Assembly (NCBI GenBank): GCA_026936105.1
Contig: JAIXKI010000005.1
Coordinates: 1-64,000, forward strand
Direction: 5' to 3'
DNA: 64,000 nt
From: Chitinophagales bacterium
GTDB lineage: Bacteria > Bacteroidota > Bacteroidia > Chitinophagales > Chitinophagaceae
Below are positions 3,168 through 17,393 of this stretch, piece after piece. Position 1 is the first letter of the stretch. Each line of letters opens with the position of its first letter. The notes beneath the pieces were generated by a model. The model was not told the origin of the DNA and did not search any database. It saw only the letters and a list, made by a program, of their open reading frames with translations. A program made the translations under genes and the position numbers.

Positions 3168-4057
3168 GTCACTCCTTCCAGTGCAAGCTCCGTATTAGCA
3201 AAAACTTCTCTTGCCTCTTTTTCAAACTCATCGAGTTTTTCATACTTGCTGCTGAAATGCCCGATCAGCAATTTTTTTACTTCCGCTTTTTGGGCGATCA
3301 GCGCTGCCTGGCCTGAAGTGGAATGAAAGCGTAGAGCCGCTCTTTCTGCAAGGTTATTGAGATAGGTGGTCTCATGGTAGATCAGGTCGGCATTTTTTAT
3401 ATGAGGAATGATCGGTTCATAATATTTTGTGTCGGCACAAAAGGCATACACTTTTCCTTTGGCTCCTTCTTCGGTCACCCATTCATTTTTGACGATGCTT
3501 CCGTCTTTTCTTGCATAATCTTCTCCCATGGTCAGCTTTTCAAAAAAAAGAGAAGGGATTCCATATTCCTTTGCTTTTTCAGGCAGCAGGCGACGGGGCT
3601 TTTTTTTCTCGGCAAAAGAAAAGCCATAACACTCGATCTGGTGGTTGGTCCTGAAACAGCGGATCGAATATTTTTCTTCATCCACCAACAGGCGCTCTTC
3701 GGTGATAGGGTGAAATTGGAGATTGAATGGGAGCTCATTATTGGCAACTTTGAGTTGCAGGTCAATGATCTCTTTGAGCGGAGCAGGAGCAAAGAGGTGC
3801 AGGTCGGGTATCCTGTTCAGCAATCCGAAACTGTTGAGCAACCCGATGAGCCCGAAATAATGGTCTCCATGAAGATGCGAAATGAAGATGTGCGAAATTT
3901 TGCTGCGCCTGATCTTATACTGCATCATCTGGGTCTGCGTTCCTTCACCACAGTCCACCAAAAAACTGGTACCATCAGTAGTCACTACCTGGCTTGTAGG
4001 GTGACGGTTAAAAGCGGGCACTGCTGAATTATTTCCAAGAATAGTGACTGCCAGCAT
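3155..4057 (-). CDS. rnz: Ribonuclease Z (tRNA 3' endonuclease)
   Basis: A metallo-beta-lactamase-fold endonuclease that removes the 3' trailer of tRNA precursors. It is 300 residues, typical of the short bacterial form. The zinc motif HLHGDH is at 61-66 in the context IFISHLHGDHYFGL. Other family landmarks are VDCGEGTQTQM and the late HFSSKY (third-histidine region). It has a CCA-end processing relative in the window (cca), but the two are not linked. It is convergent with the esterase gene (17-bp gap) and lies downstream of the STAS gene on the same strand. Confidence 0.95.
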   Translation of the reverse strand: MLAVTILGNNSAVPAFNRHPTSQVVTTDGTSFLVDCGEGTQTQMMQYKIRRSKISHIFISHLHGDHYFGLIGLLNSFGLLNRIPDLHLFAPAPLKEIIDLQLKVANNELPFNLQFHPITEERLLVDEEKYSIRCFRTNHQIECYGFSFAEKKKPRRLLPEKAKEYGIPSLFFEKLTMGEDYARKDGSIVKNEWVTEEGAKGKVYAFCADTKYYEPIIPHIKNADLIYHETTYLNNLAERAALRFHSTSGQAALIAQKAEVKKLLIGHFSSKYEKLDEFEKEAREVFANTELALEGVTYRV

Positions 4058-4178
4058 ATTCGGAACTGATATGGTCTATTTTAGTTAAGTGTTTGTGAGT
4101 AAAGACTGCAATAGACAGTCATTAGCTGCATTGCAATCAGGATTAATCCCATTCCAGATGGAGAAAATTGACCCGTAT

Positions 4179-4580
4179 CTATTCTTCTTCGCCATTCATG
4201 AACTCTCTTTCTATCTCTTCCATCTGCACAATATCGGATGCCTCGCTGATCGTTGGTGTAACATTCATTATCTCTAAAAGTTCATTTTCGTCCAGGAATT
4301 TTTCTACCGCCTTTTGTAATTCACAAATCACAAAAGATGCGTTGCTCTCATAAAATTTTTGCTGGATATTTGTCAAAGCTTCCGCAGCAGCGATATCAAT
4401 CTTTTCGATGTCTTTTAATACGAGAACAATATTTTTAGCCTGATCGTTTTGCCGGGAGGCGTCATTTTGCAGGTACGAAAGCAGATAGCCATTCAGTTCG
4501 TCTGTCATTGTAGCAGACAATGCAGGGCCGGGCAGCGTGATGACATGAAGTTTTTCTTTGGTATCTCTTTTGAACTCCAT
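4179..4580 (-). CDS. STAS-domain protein (anti-sigma-factor-antagonist-like)
   Basis: 133 residues covering a single STAS domain (NIVLVLKDIEKIDIAAAEALTNI, then ASFVICEL and a final helix) with an acidic tail (EEIEREFMNGEEE). A longer open frame exists upstream, but it is antisense to clpC, so I take the ATG at 4580. In SpoIIAA-type proteins the phosphorylated serine lies in DSSG; here the matching stretch is DIAA (Asp62-Ala64), so partner-switch control by phosphorylation at that site is unlikely. It is divergent from clpC across 91 bp. The exact partner is unknown. Confidence 0.75.
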   Translation of the reverse strand: MEFKRDTKEKLHVITLPGPALSATMTDELNGYLLSYLQNDASRQNDQAKNIVLVLKDIEKIDIAAAEALTNIQQKFYESNASFVICELQKAVEKFLDENELLEIMNVTPTISEASDIVQMEEIEREFMNGEEE

Positions 4581-4671: not shown

Positions 4672-7200
4672 ATGGATAATAATTTTTCAGCGCAGGTAAA
4701 AGAGATCATTTCGTTCAGCAGGGAGGAGGCATTGAGACTGGGAAATGATTTTATCGGTACCGAACATTTATTGCTCGGATTGATCCGTGAGGGAGATAAC
4801 ACTGCCGTCCGTATCCTGAAAAGCTTTAATGTGGATCTGTACGAATTGAGGAAAGAAATCGAACTGGCCGTGAAAGACAAGACCGGAAAGAACATTCCGA
4901 ATATCAACAGCCTTCCGCTTACCAAGCAGGCGGAGAAGGTGATCCGTGTTACCGTTCTGGAGGCAAAAGCTTTGAAGAGCGCTACCGTGGAAACCGAACA
5001 CCTGATGCTTTCCATTCTTAAAAACAAAGAGAACATTGCTACCCAGATATTAAATCAGTTTGATGTGGATTATGATCTGTTCCGCCAGGAGTTGGGCATT
5101 GTAAAATCGAATGACCCCCGTGCCGAATACACAGATGAGAATGATGATGATTTTGATGATGAGAAAAAATATTCCGGGCAGAAGAGCAGCCGTCAGCAAG
5201 GCAGTGTAAAAAGTAAAACTCCCGTACTGGATAATTTCGGGAGGGATATAACCCGTCTTGCTGAAGCAGGATCGCTGGATCCTATCGTCGGACGTGACTC
5301 TGAAATTGAGAGAGTATCTCAGATCCTTTCCCGCCGGAAAAAGAATAACCCGATCCTGATCGGTGAACCAGGTGTGGGAAAAACTGCAATTGTCGAAGGA
5401 CTTGCTTTGAGGATCGTTCAAAGAAAAGTGTCCAGAGTGCTTTTTGACAAAAGAGTTATTTCACTTGACCTGGCAGCCCTGGTGGCCGGCACCAAATACC
5501 GTGGACAGTTTGAAGAGAGAATGAAAGCAATCATGAATGAGCTTGAAAAAAACCGTGATGTCATTTTGTTCATTGATGAATTGCACACGATAGTGGGTGC
5601 AGGCGGAGCCAGCGGTTCCCTCGATGCTTCCAACATTTTCAAACCGGCATTGTCAAGGGGAGAACTTCAATGTATCGGAGCATCCACCCTGGATGAATAC
5701 AGGATGTATATTGAAAAAGATGGAGCTTTGGATCGCCGTTTTCAGAAAGTGATGGTGGATCCGCCGAGTGTGGATGATACCATTCAGATACTTCTTAATA
5801 TCAAACCCAAATACGAAGAATACCACAATGTCACCTTCAGTGAAGATTCCATTCAGGCTTGTGTAAAACTAAGTGACCGTTATATCACGGATCGCCTGCT
5901 TCCCGATAAAGCCATTGATGTCATGGATGAAGTGGGAGCCAGGGTGCATTTAAAAAACATCAACGTCCCGAAGAATATTCTGGACCTGGAAAAGAAGATC
6001 GAGGAGGTGAAGAATGAGAAGAACAAAGTGGTGAAGAGCCAGAAATTCGAGGAGGCCGCTTCACTTCGCGATACCGAAAAAAGACTCCAGGAAGATCTGG
6101 AAAAAGCAAAGGCGAGTTGGGAAGAAGAAAGCAAGCACAAACGCTTCCCGATAAGTGAAGAAGATATTGCTGAAGTGGTCAGCATGATGACCGGCATTCC
6201 GGTGAAGAGAATGGTTGAGGCCGAAACAGTGAAGTTGCGTAAGATGGCAGATGATATGAGGACGATGGTTATCGGCCAGGATGAAGCAATCCTGAAAGTG
6301 GTGAAAGCCATTCAGCGTAACCGTGTAGGACTGAAAGATCCTAAAAAACCTATCGGTACATTCATTTTTCTTGGGCCTACCGGTGTAGGTAAAACCGAGT
6401 TGGCAAGATCACTGGCCCGGTATATGTTTGATTCGGAAGATGCATTGGTCCGCATTGACATGAGTGAGTATATGGAAAAATTCACAGTCAGCCGTCTGAT
6501 CGGTGCACCTCCGGGATATGTGGGTTATGAAGAAGGAGGCCAGCTTACTGAAAAAGTGAGGCGTAAACCTTACAGCGTGATCCTTCTGGATGAAATAGAG
6601 AAAGCACATCCTGATATTTACAATATCTTATTGCAGGTGCTGGATGATGGGCAGCTTACGGATGGATTAGGAAGGAAAGTGGATTTTAAAAACACACTTA
6701 TCATCATGACCTCAAACATTGGTGTGCGCCAATTGAAGGATTTTGGTGAAGGTGTTGGTTTTGCCACCCAGGCCCGGAGCATGAGTGTAGATGAAAACAA
6801 CAAAGCTGTGATAGAAAAAGCATTAAAGCGTACTTTTTCTCCTGAGTTCCTGAACCGTATTGATGACGTGGTCATCTTCAACAGCCTGACCCGTGATCAC
6901 ATATTCCAGATCATAGATATCCTGATGAAGGATGTGATGAAGAGATTGAGCAATCTCGGATTTGGGCTTGAACTGACAGAAGAAGCCAAAGCTTTTCTGG
7001 CAGAAAAAGGATACGATCAGCAATTTGGTGCAAGGCCGCTGCACAGGGCCATTCAGAAATACCTGGAAGATCCGCTTGCGGAAGAAATTCTCAACCTTCA
7101 TGTGAAGGCCGGCGATATGCTTACTGCCGATGTAGATAAGGAAAATAATAAGCTCGTATTTACCTTCAGTAAGAAAGCGGAAGAAAAGTCGAAAGCATAA
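4672..7200 (+). CDS. clpC: ATP-dependent Clp protease ATP-binding subunit ClpC
   Basis: An AAA+ unfoldase that feeds proteins to ClpP. It is 842 residues from the ATG at 4672 ([20 protein letters not shown], the usual ClpC start); an in-frame upstream extension is not conserved-looking. The order is two Clp N-terminal repeats (~1-145), an acidic linker with [11 protein letters not shown]1 with Walker A GEPGVGKT at 231-238 and Walker B LFIDELHT, and a UVR/coiled-coil insert at ~445-485. D2 follows with Walker A GPTGVGKT at 568-575 and [12 protein letters not shown]. The UVR insert separates ClpC from ClpA. A strong terminator follows. Confidence 0.96.
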
Positions 7201-10897: not shown

Positions 10898-11824
10898 ATG
10901 TTTCGCAACCGCCTGCAAAAAGTTTACAGGCATTTATCCAGGCAGGCAAAGAGATCGTCGGTAAGCTGCTACCGTGTTTATGATCATGACCTTCCCGAAT
11001 TTCCTTTTTGCATAGAGCTTTATGACACGCATTTGTATGTAGCGGAATATAAGCGGCGGCATGGAATGGCTGACGCAGAGCATGAATTGTGGCTGAAAAA
11101 GAGCATGGGAATTATTTCAGAAATTCTTTCCGTCCCGGAAAAAAATATTTTCCTGAAACTGCGGCAAAGAAAAGCCGGCAGAACAGGCCAATATCAAAAA
11201 GTGGGGGAGAAGAAAAGTGAATTTATTGTGGAAGAAAATGGGTTGAAATTTCTTGTCAATCTTAATGATTACCTCGACACCGGGTTGTTTCCCGATCACC
11301 GCATCACAAGGCAAATGGCCCATGATGAAAGTGAAGATAAATCCGTCCTGAATCTTTTTGCTTATACAGGTTCTTTTTCCGTGTATGCCGCCGCAGGGGG
11401 AGCAAAAGAAGTGGTGACCGTTGATCTCTCCAACACCTACCTGAAATGGGCTGAAAGAAATATGCAACTGAACGGATTCAGTGACCCGGAAAGATTTCAT
11501 TATGTAAGAGTGGATGTAAAAGAATATCTGAAAGAATTGCTTCCGGGACATTTTGACCTGGTGATCATGGACCCGCCCACTTTCAGCAACAGCAAAAAGA
11601 TGAATGAGTTCCTGGATATTCAGCGGGATCATGTTGCTTTGATCGGCTTTTGTTTGCGGGTCATGAAGAAAAGAGGTGTTCTTTTTTTCAGCACCAATTA
11701 CAGCAAGTTCATTTTAGAAAAAGAAAAGATCACTGCCTCATCCATAAAAGATATCACTTCTGCCACCACACCTTTTGACTTTACAGGAAGAATGCATCGT
11801 TATTGCTTCCGCATCACCAAATAA
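10898..11824 (+). CDS. Class I SAM-dependent RNA methyltransferase (RlmI/RlmK-like)
   Basis: 308 residues from ATG 10898 (MFRNRLQKVYRHLSRQAKR), preceded by AGGAAG; earlier ATGs would overlap the divergent nuclease gene. Visible motifs are SCYRVYDHDLPEFPFCIELY (an EEHEE-like substrate-binding region), SAM motif I LNLFAYTGSFSVYAAAGGA, VDLSN (motif II) and DPPTF (motif IV). This places it with 23S rRNA methyltransferases of the RlmI/RlmKL type, but the target base cannot be told. Divergent from the exonuclease gene across 67 bp. Confidence 0.88.
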   Translation: MFRNRLQKVYRHLSRQAKRSSVSCYRVYDHDLPEFPFCIELYDTHLYVAEYKRRHGMADAEHELWLKKSMGIISEILSVPEKNIFLKLRQRKAGRTGQYQKVGEKKSEFIVEENGLKFLVNLNDYLDTGLFPDHRITRQMAHDESEDKSVLNLFAYTGSFSVYAAAGGAKEVVTVDLSNTYLKWAERNMQLNGFSDPERFHYVRVDVKEYLKELLPGHFDLVIMDPPTFSNSKKMNEFLDIQRDHVALIGFCLRVMKKRGVLFFSTNYSKFILEKEKITASSIKDITSATTPFDFTGRMHRYCFRITK

Positions 11825-11849
11825 AAAAGGGGTAAATCGAGGCTAATTG

Positions 11850-12566
11850 ATTATTCCTCTTGAAAATTATTGACTGGTAATTCCAGTCTGAGGAAAAATC
11901 AAATGCACAGATCAAATGACACTTCATTGTCCCCCGCAGGCGGGGGCTGGCTACACGAAAAAAAACGAATTCACGATAGGGGGTGGATTGAAGCAGATCG
12001 TTTGCTTTATTTTTCTTTAAAATTATTGGCAGGTAAAGAGCAATCGTCTGGATTCAGGAAGCTCAACCTGTTCGTCCACCCCCACTTGAAAGATTTCTCT
12101 ATTCGAACTGCTTCCCCCGCCGACGGGGGATATAATGCAGCTTCAAATCCGGGCGGCGTATGATAAATAAATAAAAGTAATTCCGATATGATTGGAAGCT
12201 GAAATTTTCATATTAAATGACACCTCATTATCCCCCTCTGGCGGGGGCCGGATGCACGAAAAAAATGAAATCACGAATGGGGGTGGATCAAAGCTGATCG
12301 TTTACTTTATTTCACTTGAAAATTATTGACCGGTAAAGAGCAAGCCTCCGGATTCAGGAAGCTCAACCTGTTCGTCCACCCCCACTTGAAAGATTTCTCT
12401 ATTCGAACTGCTTCCCCCGCCGGCGGGGGATATGATGCAGTTCCTGATTCGTGTGGTGTATGATCTATTTACAAGAAGTAATTCCGGCCTGAAAAGAAAG
12501 CAAATGCTCAGATCAAATGACTCTTCATTGTCCCCCGCTTGAAAGGTTTCTCTATTCGAAAAACAT
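11850..12566 (+). repeat. Tandem ~300-bp repeat array with hairpins and truncated end copies
   Basis: The phase marker GTAATTCC recurs at 11877, 12177 and 12478, giving periods of 300 and 301 bp. Copies 1 (11877-12176) and 2 (12177-12477) are full. Each holds hairpin CCCCCGC/GCGGGGG (11931-11946 in copy 1), a long-range pair GGGGGTGGA (11979) with TCCACCCCC (12075), and hairpin CCCCCG/CGGGGG (12114-12129). A partial copy precedes (CTTGAAAATTATTGACTGGTAA, ending 11880). Copy 3 (from 12478) jumps from the first C-run to TTGAAAGGTTTCTCTATTCG, an internal deletion. I see no credible coding sequence. The rest of the gap to 12630 holds nothing I recognise. Confidence 0.88.
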
Positions 12567-12691: not shown

Positions 12692-13621
12692 TTACAACGT
12701 CTTTAGCACATTGTTCATGTTTCTTACTGCATCAGCGCTCTTGTTGAATGCTGCCTGCTCTTCAGAATTTAGCCCGAAATCAACGATCTTCTCCCAGCCG
12801 TTTTTACCAATAACAACTGGAACGCCAAGGCAAATATCTTTTTGCCCGTATTCTCCATCGAGATATACACAGCAGGAGAAAAGCTTCTTTTCATCCCTCA
12901 CAATGGCTTCCACCAATGCGGCTCCGCATGCGCCGGGTGCATACCATGCAGAAGTGCCGATAAGTTTGGTGAGGGTGGCTCCGCCCACCATGGTATCGCT
13001 TACCACCTGGTGTTGCTGTTCAGCAGTCAGGAATTTCGTGACCGGTACGCTGTTCCAGGTTGCAAAACGTATCAGCGGGATCATGGTCGTGTCTCCGTGT
13101 CCGCCGATGACGATGGCATTCAGGTCGGAAGGATTGCAGTTCAGGCGCTGGCTCAGTTGATATTTGAATCTTGAACTGTCGAGTAGGCCGCCCATGCCGA
13201 TGATACGGTTCTTAGGCAGGCCGGTGGAGGTAAGTGCGAGATAAGTCATGGTGTCCATCGGGTTGCTGATCACGATGATGATGGCATCAGGAGAATGCTT
13301 CAGAATATTTTCGCAAACTCCTTTAACGATGCCGGCATTGGTGCCCACCAGTTCTTCACGGGTCATTCCCGGTTTACGGGGAATACCTGAAGTGATGACC
13401 ACGACGCTGCTGCCTGCGGTCTTAGAATAATCATTGGTGGATCCGGTGATCTTTGTGTCAAAGCCGAGGAGGGTGGCGGTCTGCATCATATCCTGGGCTT
13501 TCCCTTCGGTAAGCCCTTCTTTGATGTCGAGCAATACCAGTTCCGTGCATAATTCCTTGCGTGCAATATTTTCGGCAACGGTGGCACCCACTGCGCCTGC
13601 ACCTACAACAGTTATTTTCAT
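12692..13621 (-). CDS. mdh: Malate dehydrogenase (LDH-like type)
   Basis: Interconverts malate and oxaloacetate with NAD in the TCA cycle. It is 309 residues. NAD motif GAGAVG is at 7-12 and the substrate arginines are Arg82 and Arg88 in GIPRKPGMTREEL; arginine at the specificity position points to malate rather than lactate. SNPMD, Arg151 in DSSRFK and the catalytic His175 in GGHGDTTM are present. It has its own terminator and a TATCTTTG element 41 bases before the start, so it is likely monocistronic. Confidence 0.96.
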   Translation of the reverse strand: MKITVVGAGAVGATVAENIARKELCTELVLLDIKEGLTEGKAQDMMQTATLLGFDTKITGSTNDYSKTAGSSVVVITSGIPRKPGMTREELVGTNAGIVKGVCENILKHSPDAIIIVISNPMDTMTYLALTSTGLPKNRIIGMGGLLDSSRFKYQLSQRLNCNPSDLNAIVIGGHGDTTMIPLIRFATWNSVPVTKFLTAEQQHQVVSDTMVGGATLTKLIGTSAWYAPGACGAALVEAIVRDEKKLFSCCVYLDGEYGQKDICLGVPVVIGKNGWEKIVDFGLNSEEQAAFNKSADAVRNMNNVLKTL

Positions 13622-14501: not shown

Positions 14502-17393
14502 TCATTTTACTTCTTTGCCGGTTTTATCGATATAACCATATTTCCCATTGAGTTTTACTAAAGCTTTTCCGTTCTTAAAACTATTGGCACCATCGTATTG
14601 TAGTTTGGTTATTTCTTTACCGGTTTTATCAATAAATCCCCATTTACCACCAGTAAGGTCATCAATTATATCAGGAGTCGCACCGATGTTTACCGCCGCC
14701 AATCCTTCGGAAAAATCTTTTACATTATCATATTTAAGTTCTACGACAACATTTCCTGTTTTGTCTATAAAACCCCATTTGCTATTTTGATTTACTTTAG
14801 CCAGACCTTCGTGAAATTCCCAGGTGTTATCAAATTGTGGCTTAATTATTTCTTTTCCGGTTTTATCAATAAAACCAAATTTATCATTTTGTCTTACCGC
14901 CGCCAATCCTTCGGAAAAAGAACCGGCATTGTAATATTTCAGTTCTATAACTACTTTTCCGGTTTTGTCTATAAAACCATATTTTTTATTGAGTGCTACC
15001 AGCGCCATCCCTTCTTGAAAATTTTTGGCCTCATCAAATTGTGGTTTTACTACTTCTTTCCCTGTTTTATCTATAAAACCGAATTTTTTATTGAGTGCTA
15101 CCAGCGCCATCCCTTCTTGAAAATTTTTGGCCTCATCAAATTGTGGTTTTACTACTTCTTTCCCTGTTTTATCTATAAAACCCCATTTGCCATTTTGTTT
15201 TACACCCGCCATCCCTTCAGAAAAATACCATGCTTCATCATATCTCGGTTTAATCAACTCTTTTCCCGCTTTATTTACAAAACCCCATTTCCCATTGATT
15301 GCTATCATTGCCAGCCCCTCGGAATAATCCCCTATACCGTCATAATTAATTGCTACTATAACTTTTCCGGTTTTATCTATAAAACCCCATTTACCGCCCT
15401 CAACACCGAAAATTGCATTAGGATGTCCGCCAATATTTACTGCTGCCAATCCTTCGGAAAAACTTCCGGCAAATTCATACTGTGGTGCTATGACTATGTT
15501 ACCGGATTCATCTTTGTAGCCATACTTTCCATTGACATTTTTAAAAGGTCTTAAATCCTGTGCATTGATAGTACTTGTTGATGCAGAATTATTGTTTGTG
15601 TTTGGGGGTACAGATTTCGGATTTTTATCAATTTCTTTTCCGGTTTTATCAATATAAAAAAATCTGCCGTTGAGGCTGACAATTGCAGTGTTATCAGAAG
15701 AAAAATGAAATTCATTATCATATTGTGGCATAATTGCTTCTCCTTTTATTTTATCTATAAGACCCCATTTGCCATTTTGTTTTACTAATGCTGTCCCATC
15801 ATTGAGAAAAGACTCTATAAAATCGTATTTCGGTGTTGCAATTTCTTTTCCTGTTAAATCTATAAGTCCCCATTTACCATTTAGTCGTACCTGAGCCAAA
15901 CCTTCGTGGAAAGAATTTATAAAATCATATTTCGGTGTTACAATTTCTTTCCCTGTTTTATCTACCAAACCCTTTTTTTTATTGAGTGAAACTTTCGCTA
16001 TTCCATCAGAAAATTTTTCTACATAATCGTATTTTGGTGTTACGATTGTTTTTCCCGTTTTATCAATAACCCCCCATTTGTTGTTTTGTTTTACTGCAGC
16101 CAACCCTTCATTAAAATTTTCAGCATCATCATATTGTGGTTTAATTATTTCTTTCCCTGTTTTATCTATATAGCCATATTTGCCCCGAATCCATTTACCA
16201 CCATCCATTTTCCCATTTTCTTGTACTGCCGCCAATCCTTCGTAAAAGCTTTTGCCATCATGATATTGTAGTGCTATGATTTCTTTCCCTTTTTTGTCTA
16301 TATATCCCCATTTACCCTCTACAATACCTCCTTTATTTACCGGTGTAAACCCTTCGTGAAAATTTCTTGCACCATCATATTGTAATTTTATGATTTCTTT
16401 CCCTGTTTTATCTATAAAGCCCCATTTATCATTTTGCTCTACCGCAGCCAATCCTTCAGAAAAGTTGAATGCATTACTATATTTTGCTACTACAACAACT
16501 TTCCCTGTTTCATCTATAAAGCCGTATTTATCGTTTTGTTTTACTTTTATAAAACCTTCAGAAGAAAATAATGCTACATCATCAAACTGCGATGATATGA
16601 CTGTTTTCCCGGATTTATCCTTGAAGCCGTACTTTCCATTGACATCTTTAAAAGATATTAATTCCTGTACATTGCTACTTGTTGAAGCGCTTTTATTATT
16701 TGTATCTGTCGCTACAGATGGAGGATTATTGTTAATTTCTTTTCCGGTTTTATCTATATGAAAGTTTCTGTCGTTGAGTATAACAAGAGCTTGGTTATTT
16801 TTAAACCCGTAGGCAGTTTCATATTGAATTTTGATTATTTCCTTACCGGTTTTATCTATATATCCCCATTTACCTTTCCAAATTCCGCCTTTATTTACCG
16901 GAGCAAGCCCTTCCTGAAAATCTCCGGCACCATCATATTGTGGCTTAATTACTTCTTTTCCTGTTTTGTCTATAAAGCCATATTTGCCATTAAACATACC
17001 TCCTGTATTTACCCTCGCCAGTCCTTCATGAAAGCCCCAGGCTCCATCGTATTGTGTTTTAATTACTACTTTCCCTGTTTTGTCTATAAAGGACCATTTA
17101 AAATTTTGGCCTACTGCCGCCAATCCTTCCCTGAAATCCGTGGCATCATCATATTGTAGTTTGATTATTTCTTTGCCCGCCTTGTCTATATAACCCCATT
17201 TATCGTTTTGCTTTACCCTGCACAATCCTTCTGAAAAATCCATAGCAACAAAATCATATTGCGGCGCTATGACTGTTTTCCCGGATGCATCTTTGAAACC
17301 ATACTTTCCACTGGTACCTTGAAAAGATGTTAATTTCTGCGCCTGGGCTGTAAATCCCGCTAACAACAGGAAGTATAAAATGAGTTGTTTCAT
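14502..17393 (-). CDS. Exported WG-repeat protein (963 residues)
   Basis: A signal peptide (MKQLILYFLLLAGFTAQA) is followed by more than twenty WG/KWG repeats of 32-36 residues (pattern KWGFIDKTGKEVIKPQYD...F.EGLA.V). They fall into three larger modules (~20-217, ~244-583, ~612-963). Each opens with F..(V/T)(N/S)GKYG(F/Y)KD and is separated by Asn/Ser/Thr-rich linkers (~218-243, ~584-611), suggesting duplication of whole modules. Two adjacent units (14981-15080 and 15083-15182) are essentially identical in DNA, a recent 102-bp duplication. WG proteins are beta-repeat surface or periplasmic proteins; the specific function is unknown. Confidence 0.9.
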   Translation of the reverse strand: MKQLILYFLLLAGFTAQAQKLTSFQGTSGKYGFKDASGKTVIAPQYDFVAMDFSEGLCRVKQNDKWGYIDKAGKEIIKLQYDDATDFREGLAAVGQNFKWSFIDKTGKVVIKTQYDGAWGFHEGLARVNTGGMFNGKYGFIDKTGKEVIKPQYDGAGDFQEGLAPVNKGGIWKGKWGYIDKTGKEIIKIQYETAYGFKNNQALVILNDRNFHIDKTGKEINNNPPSVATDTNNKSASTSSNVQELISFKDVNGKYGFKDKSGKTVISSQFDDVALFSSEGFIKVKQNDKYGFIDETGKVVVVAKYSNAFNFSEGLAAVEQNDKWGFIDKTGKEIIKLQYDGARNFHEGFTPVNKGGIVEGKWGYIDKKGKEIIALQYHDGKSFYEGLAAVQENGKMDGGKWIRGKYGYIDKTGKEIIKPQYDDAENFNEGLAAVKQNNKWGVIDKTGKTIVTPKYDYVEKFSDGIAKVSLNKKKGLVDKTGKEIVTPKYDFINSFHEGLAQVRLNGKWGLIDLTGKEIATPKYDFIESFLNDGTALVKQNGKWGLIDKIKGEAIMPQYDNEFHFSSDNTAIVSLNGRFFYIDKTGKEIDKNPKSVPPNTNNNSASTSTINAQDLRPFKNVNGKYGYKDESGNIVIAPQYEFAGSFSEGLAAVNIGGHPNAIFGVEGGKWGFIDKTGKVIVAINYDGIGDYSEGLAMIAINGKWGFVNKAGKELIKPRYDEAWYFSEGMAGVKQNGKWGFIDKTGKEVVKPQFDEAKNFQEGMALVALNKKFGFIDKTGKEVVKPQFDEAKNFQEGMALVALNKKYGFIDKTGKVVIELKYYNAGSFSEGLAAVRQNDKFGFIDKTGKEIIKPQFDNTWEFHEGLAKVNQNSKWGFIDKTGNVVVELKYDNVKDFSEGLAAVNIGATPDIIDDLTGGKWGFIDKTGKEITKLQYDGANSFKNGKALVKLNGKYGYIDKTGKEVK

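Follow-up and report, generated by a model that had tools for sequence, protein, structure and literature searches.

The question raised by this locus was where a tandem array of 300-bp structured repeats between two convergent genes came from, and by what process it was multiplied. The window (the whole stretch of DNA analysed, 64,000 nucleotides) lies on contig C26 of a 3.6 Mb Chitinophagales genome, designated G000. The array spans 11829-12563 with a period of 300 bp, between a class I methyltransferase gene (ending at 11824) and a malate dehydrogenase gene (12692-13621, - strand), and comprises 2 full and 2 partial units (Table 1). Tandem Repeats Finder returned 11877-12539 (period 300, 2.2 copies, 79% matches, score 898), a repeat search of the window returned a 206-nt pair at 87% identity and a spacing of 300, and GTAATTCC was located at 11877, 12177 and 12478. 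One unit consists of a core of 200-201 bp and a spacer of ~100 bp, and the core is ordered as left hairpin (TCCCCCGCNGGCGGGGG), GGGGGTGGA, an interior of ~87 bp, TCCACCCCC and right hairpin, with GGGGGTGGA and TCCACCCCC as the inner inverted repeat of the unit. By these repeat and hairpin coordinates, an earlier sequence-only reading had described the locus accurately, as two full and two partial copies of ~300 bp with GTAATTCC three times, paired hairpins and a long-range pair. A second tandem repeat, of 102 bp, is held by the coding sequence of a 963-aa WG-repeat protein elsewhere in the window (14502-17393).

Table 1. Parts of the array, in positions of the window.
Feature	Position	Strand	Details
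5' partial unit	11829-11880		Interior fragment (GGGGTAAATC...GACTGGTAA) fused to spacer at GTAA (11877-11880); first right hairpin deleted
Unit core 1, 201 bp	11930-12130	-	Left hairpin 11930-11946; GGGGGTGGA 11979-11987; interior; TCCACCCCC 12075-12083; right hairpin 12113-12130
Spacer between cores, 100 bp	12131-12230		Homologous across all G000 and G002 arrays (alignment of 13 spacers)
Unit core 2, 200 bp	12231-12430	-	Left hairpin 12231-12247; GGGGGTGGA 12279-12287; TCCACCCCC 12375-12383; right hairpin 12413-12430
Putative remnant of DUF559 3' coding end and stop	12288-12315	-	..NKVNDQL before the stop, against ..VNKVSKQH of the intact gene
Second spacer	12431-12530		From the coordinates of the array parts
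3' partial unit	12531-12563		Left hairpin arm TCCCCCGC fused at a C-run to TTGAAAGG...; junction CCCCC(n)C at 12531-12539; remaining left hairpin, interior and right hairpin missing

The genome-wide search for the unit that had been proposed with that reading yielded two further arrays in G000, one on contig C1 within the distal portion of a type II-C CRISPR locus and one on C36, where 4.3 copies of 273 bp follow mnmA and three of the unit cores are identical. In G002, a sister species of the same genus, the arrays on C9 and C38 are the orthologues of the window and C36 arrays, respectively, and a third array lies on C37 behind cas9 (>5 units, the contig ending within the array). Copy number differs between the sister species at both orthologous sites, C9 having one unit fewer than the window array and C38 having 2 units against 4.3 in C36. 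The unit is thus present elsewhere, and an assembly artefact or chance was ruled out by the diverged units (13-18% from one another), the two other genomic sites and the orthologous array in G002. The arrays do break assemblies, as seen in an N gap in C1 of G000 and the contig end in C37 of G002. The methylase-mdh gene pair was found without an array in the congeners G003 and G008; at these empty sites, where target-site duplication was checked, the flanks are too diverged to define the ends. A plasmid collection searched with the unit gave no match. Two details of the CRISPR-associated sites were also recorded: the C37 array begins ~100 bp behind the cas9 ORF (locus L022), and the 47-nt type II-C CRISPR repeats on C1 (L010 reversed, ~3237-3311 and 5811-5888) contain an inserted 27-bp hairpin (CTGCCCGAC..CTTTCAGGCGGGC).

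Both partial units were compared with their counterparts in G002. The 3' trimmed copy is common to the window array and C9 with the same junction, which bears out the proposal that the third copy was shortened at a C-run homology; because G002 shares this copy, the trimming predates the split of the two species. The proposal that recombination or slippage between C-runs trims the units held for this 3' unit and failed for the 5' partial unit, which was trimmed at GTAA and whose counterpart in G002 is intact, starting AGGAGGTGGATC directly after the methylase stop. Such amplification and trimming at short homologies are plain, and would be expected if local intergenic DNA with no mobile origin had been passively duplicated in tandem; at a locus of G003 described below, host flank and a hairpin end are duplicated as well. 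The unit, spacer included, nevertheless occurs at three unrelated places in G000 and in G002, and neither G003 nor G008 has an array at the window site, so that we hold passive duplication to be highly improbable; the dispersed copies refute it as a full account, and it is likely still the mechanism of the tandem step.

A different origin is indicated by the ends of the unit. On C1 of G000, two unit halves flank an intact 130-aa DUF559 ORF, and a complete copy on C21 of G003 reads hairpin - GGGGTGGA - DUF559 - TCCACCCC - hairpin; the two ORFs match Pfam PF04480 with E values of 3e-32 and 1e-31, respectively. Complete elements are ordered as hairpin (TCCCCCGCNGGCGGGGG), short gap, GGGGGTGGA, small Vsr/EDxHD-type nuclease gene, TCCACCCCC, short gap and hairpin, and both unit termini (hairpin and GGGGGTGGA) are common to the C1 and C21 elements and to relatives in GTDB. 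The sharing of unit ends with a DUF559 endonuclease element, like the presence of the unit elsewhere in the genome, was absent from the sequence-only reading. We consider it likely that the 300-bp repeats are gutted, tandemly multiplied, MITE-like derivatives of this hairpin-ended mobile element. Direct support for this derivation is given by the shared ends, the intact copies that G000 and a congener carry, the occupied and empty sites and the copy numbers of the sister species. The array itself looks ordinary; the parent element is less so and is of greater interest.

A scan of four congeneric genomes placed every match of the hairpin pattern either in one of these arrays or next to a DUF559 gene (at the G003 DUF559 locus), and the reversed pattern, used as a control, gave 0 matches. 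Neither DUF559 nor the hairpin was found in the congener G001, and in G002, which carries arrays, no intact standalone DUF559 gene of the array-related subtype was found. This distribution bears on the reading of the array as a REP/BIME-type repeat, in which a RAYT/Y1 (HUH) transposase would move pairs of palindromes and the pairs would multiply in tandem as in BIME-2. The inverted hairpin pairs, tandem layout and intergenic site would all suit such a repeat, and Y1_Tnp genes are present in G001, G002 and G003. It was judged very unlikely because G000 has no match to Y1_Tnp (PF01797), the hairpin is confined to arrays and DUF559 gene flanks rather than scattered, G001 has Y1_Tnp genes yet is without such a hairpin, and the unit ends match DUF559 elements of many phyla.

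The association of the hairpin-ended DUF559 element with its ends was then counted more widely. At 65 GTDB loci, a hairpin lies within 200 bp of the DUF559 gene upstream in 40/65, downstream in 25/65 and on both sides in 15/65, against 9/1189 control windows from the same loci; at DUF559 loci of the host family it lies on both sides in 20/30, against 9/231 controls. Among GTDB relatives (Bacteroidota, Chlorobiota, Planctomycetota, Scalindua and others) the same inverted end is often ~50 bp from the ORF, and in its purest form it is TTGTCCCCCGCTGGCGGGGGATTAAGGGGGTGGA, found on both sides at locus L147 and also at L115, L123 and L136. The exact long terminus, searched in 61 family genomes, was found in the array's own genus only, which means that end sequences differ between genera. 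The hairpin is 25-35 nt from GGGGGTGGA in the G000 and G002 units and 2-8 nt from it in canonical ends elsewhere. One Fulvivirga genome holds two DUF559 copies that are 93% identical over 553 bp in differing surroundings, a pair that would be expected of a mobile element. At the C21 locus of G003 (L024), the pntB 3' end together with the element's hairpin end is present twice (2564-2960 and 3863-4260), with a nucleotidyltransferase/HEPN gene pair in between.

For the DUF559 protein encoded on C1, structure prediction (pLDDT 87) gave a fold whose closest matches are 3hrl and the I-Bth0305I catalytic domain (3r3p), the latter from a homing endonuclease. Judged by the closest named relatives of the DUF559 protein, its host would belong to Bacteroidota, near Chitinophagaceae. 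In 29 DUF559 relatives 20 positions are invariant, including D59, E70, D72 and H76 (D, E-x-D, H), and judged by the fold these four residues are likely catalytic. We infer that the parent element is autonomous. A DUF559 gene has been termed an EDxHD homing endonuclease in one paper (PMC9403480), and VsrA, a DUF559 protein in Caulobacter, has been connected with a YGCCGGCR motif (PMC12907096); a link between this motif and the hairpin tip CGCCGGCG was treated as mere resemblance and excluded from the evidence. No description of DUF559 elements of this kind was found in the open-access literature searched, a library that is incomplete.

Traces of the gene were looked for within the units. The parent DUF559 gene would run on the - strand of core 1, and on that strand the unit interior aligns with the gene's 5' leader and final codons, weakly copy by copy. 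The C37 unit of G002 reads FYQEKWVTRKTN to a stop, and intact DUF559 genes terminate in EYRLKEWIVNKVSKQH and HYLEDWIENKISQ, each likewise followed by a stop. When interiors were aligned locally to intact elements with the inverted repeat left out and compared with dinucleotide shuffles, the tail of window unit 2 (p = 0.002), the C37 leader of G002 (p < 0.001) and the C36 leader (p = 0.001-0.009) scored above chance, and window unit 1 and the C1 unit were not significant, the internal homology to the gene being short. The shared ends give the strong evidence for a deletion derivative and the interior remnants give supporting evidence, and the window copies are best explained as having mostly lost the gene and kept its two ends. 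The spacer of ~100 bp, which repeats with the unit in all arrays, is not explained by an element that runs from hairpin to hairpin.

The structure of the unit had also suggested a non-coding element, and a tandemly duplicated gene for a structured non-coding RNA (or a terminator or attenuator) was weighed in these terms. The predicted consensus fold is stable (-44 kcal/mol), and a terminator would be of use at the site of the window array, where the flanking genes converge. Against this, 0/24 pairs in three helices had changed on both sides over 11 diverged cores, with values equal to those of shuffles, no Rfam family was matched at gathering score (sub-threshold chance matches only), and the other arrays lie in the unlike contexts given above. 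Over the same 11 cores, conservation lies in the ends of the unit. As an RNA, then, the structured element was not borne out, and we regard this origin as very unlikely.

In the same family, DUF559 domains were also found in frame inside large conserved enzymes, namely MetH (G000, G002, G003, G016), LeuRS, MetG, AroC and HsdR (loci L025, L031, L040, L044, L047, L048 and L028 of family genomes, and G000:C9:86811-87134), with hairpin-encoded linkers on both sides. The insert in MetH is ~165 aa; MetH is without the insertion in most of the family: the majority of the 80 genomes searched have an open frame of ~900 aa, and an empty linker was seen. An intein reading of these inserts was rejected, since Pfam scans of the hosts gave no splicing (HINT) domain and DUF559 stood alone between the host parts of MetH, LeuRS, MetG and AroC. 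The LeuRS genes of L044 and L047 also carry in-frame inserts of hairpin only (e.g., PPSPLGEGRGEA), without DUF559, which resemble Rickettsia palindromic elements, and a single HsdR ORF at L028 has GIY-YIG and DUF559 domains, both apparent insertions. No description of in-frame DUF559 or hairpin inserts was found in the open-access papers searched, and others may exist.

From these observations a sequence of events can be proposed for the gutted derivatives. The nuclease most likely once mobilised elements with such ends, in cis or in trans; acting on hairpin ends or on a target, it would have caused the element to be copied via break repair or fork-associated strand transfer. One gutted copy with its adjoining spacer would then have spread to several sites, and the spacer may have been captured as perhaps in G003, where a piece of host flank was duplicated along with a hairpin end. 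Tandem units would later have been gained when units recombined unequally or slipped during replication, and units would have been trimmed by occasional deletion between short homologies (GTAA, CCCCC). The recombination or slippage step is evident in the junctions and the differing copy numbers of the sister species; mobilisation would have preceded it, and the window array is now probably inert. It is plausible, though we would stop short of calling it probable, that small hairpin-ended DUF559 (Vsr/EDxHD) nuclease genes are a widespread mobile class without a recognised transposase that crosses phyla, enters essential genes in frame with no splicing and gives rise to gutted copies that multiply in tandem. 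If so, a Pfam domain of unknown function would drive a common selfish element, which would account for hairpins inserted in frame into many bacterial enzymes and provide a test system for the movement of DNA by a lone nuclease.

Several known systems resemble parts of this picture. REP/BIME/REPIN sequences with RAYT share the inverted hairpin pairs and tandem amplification of the array; G000, in contrast, lacks a Y1 transposase and its hairpins are restricted to DUF559 loci and arrays. MITEs, like the array, keep their ends, lose their coding part and leave dispersed copies beside an intact relative in the same genome. The parent here differs in that its gene product is a nuclease of the Vsr/EDxHD type and not a known transposase, the ends are G/C hairpins with an inner repeat, the tandem arrays share a spacer and target-site duplication is not established. 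Rickettsia palindromic elements (~150 bp; review PMC10969869) place palindromic DNA in frame in housekeeping genes, as do the MetH and LeuRS inserts, whereas the related elements here bear a nuclease gene and a defined end sequence and the window array is intergenic. EDxHD (Vsr-like) homing endonucleases such as I-Bth0305I, whose catalytic domain is among the nearest solved folds to the predicted C1 protein, are likewise small nuclease genes that enter new sites. The DUF559 element differs from them in lying outside any intron or intein, in its inverted hairpin ends and in a 130-aa protein without a separate DNA-binding domain, and it occupies many different sites, which argues against single-site homing.
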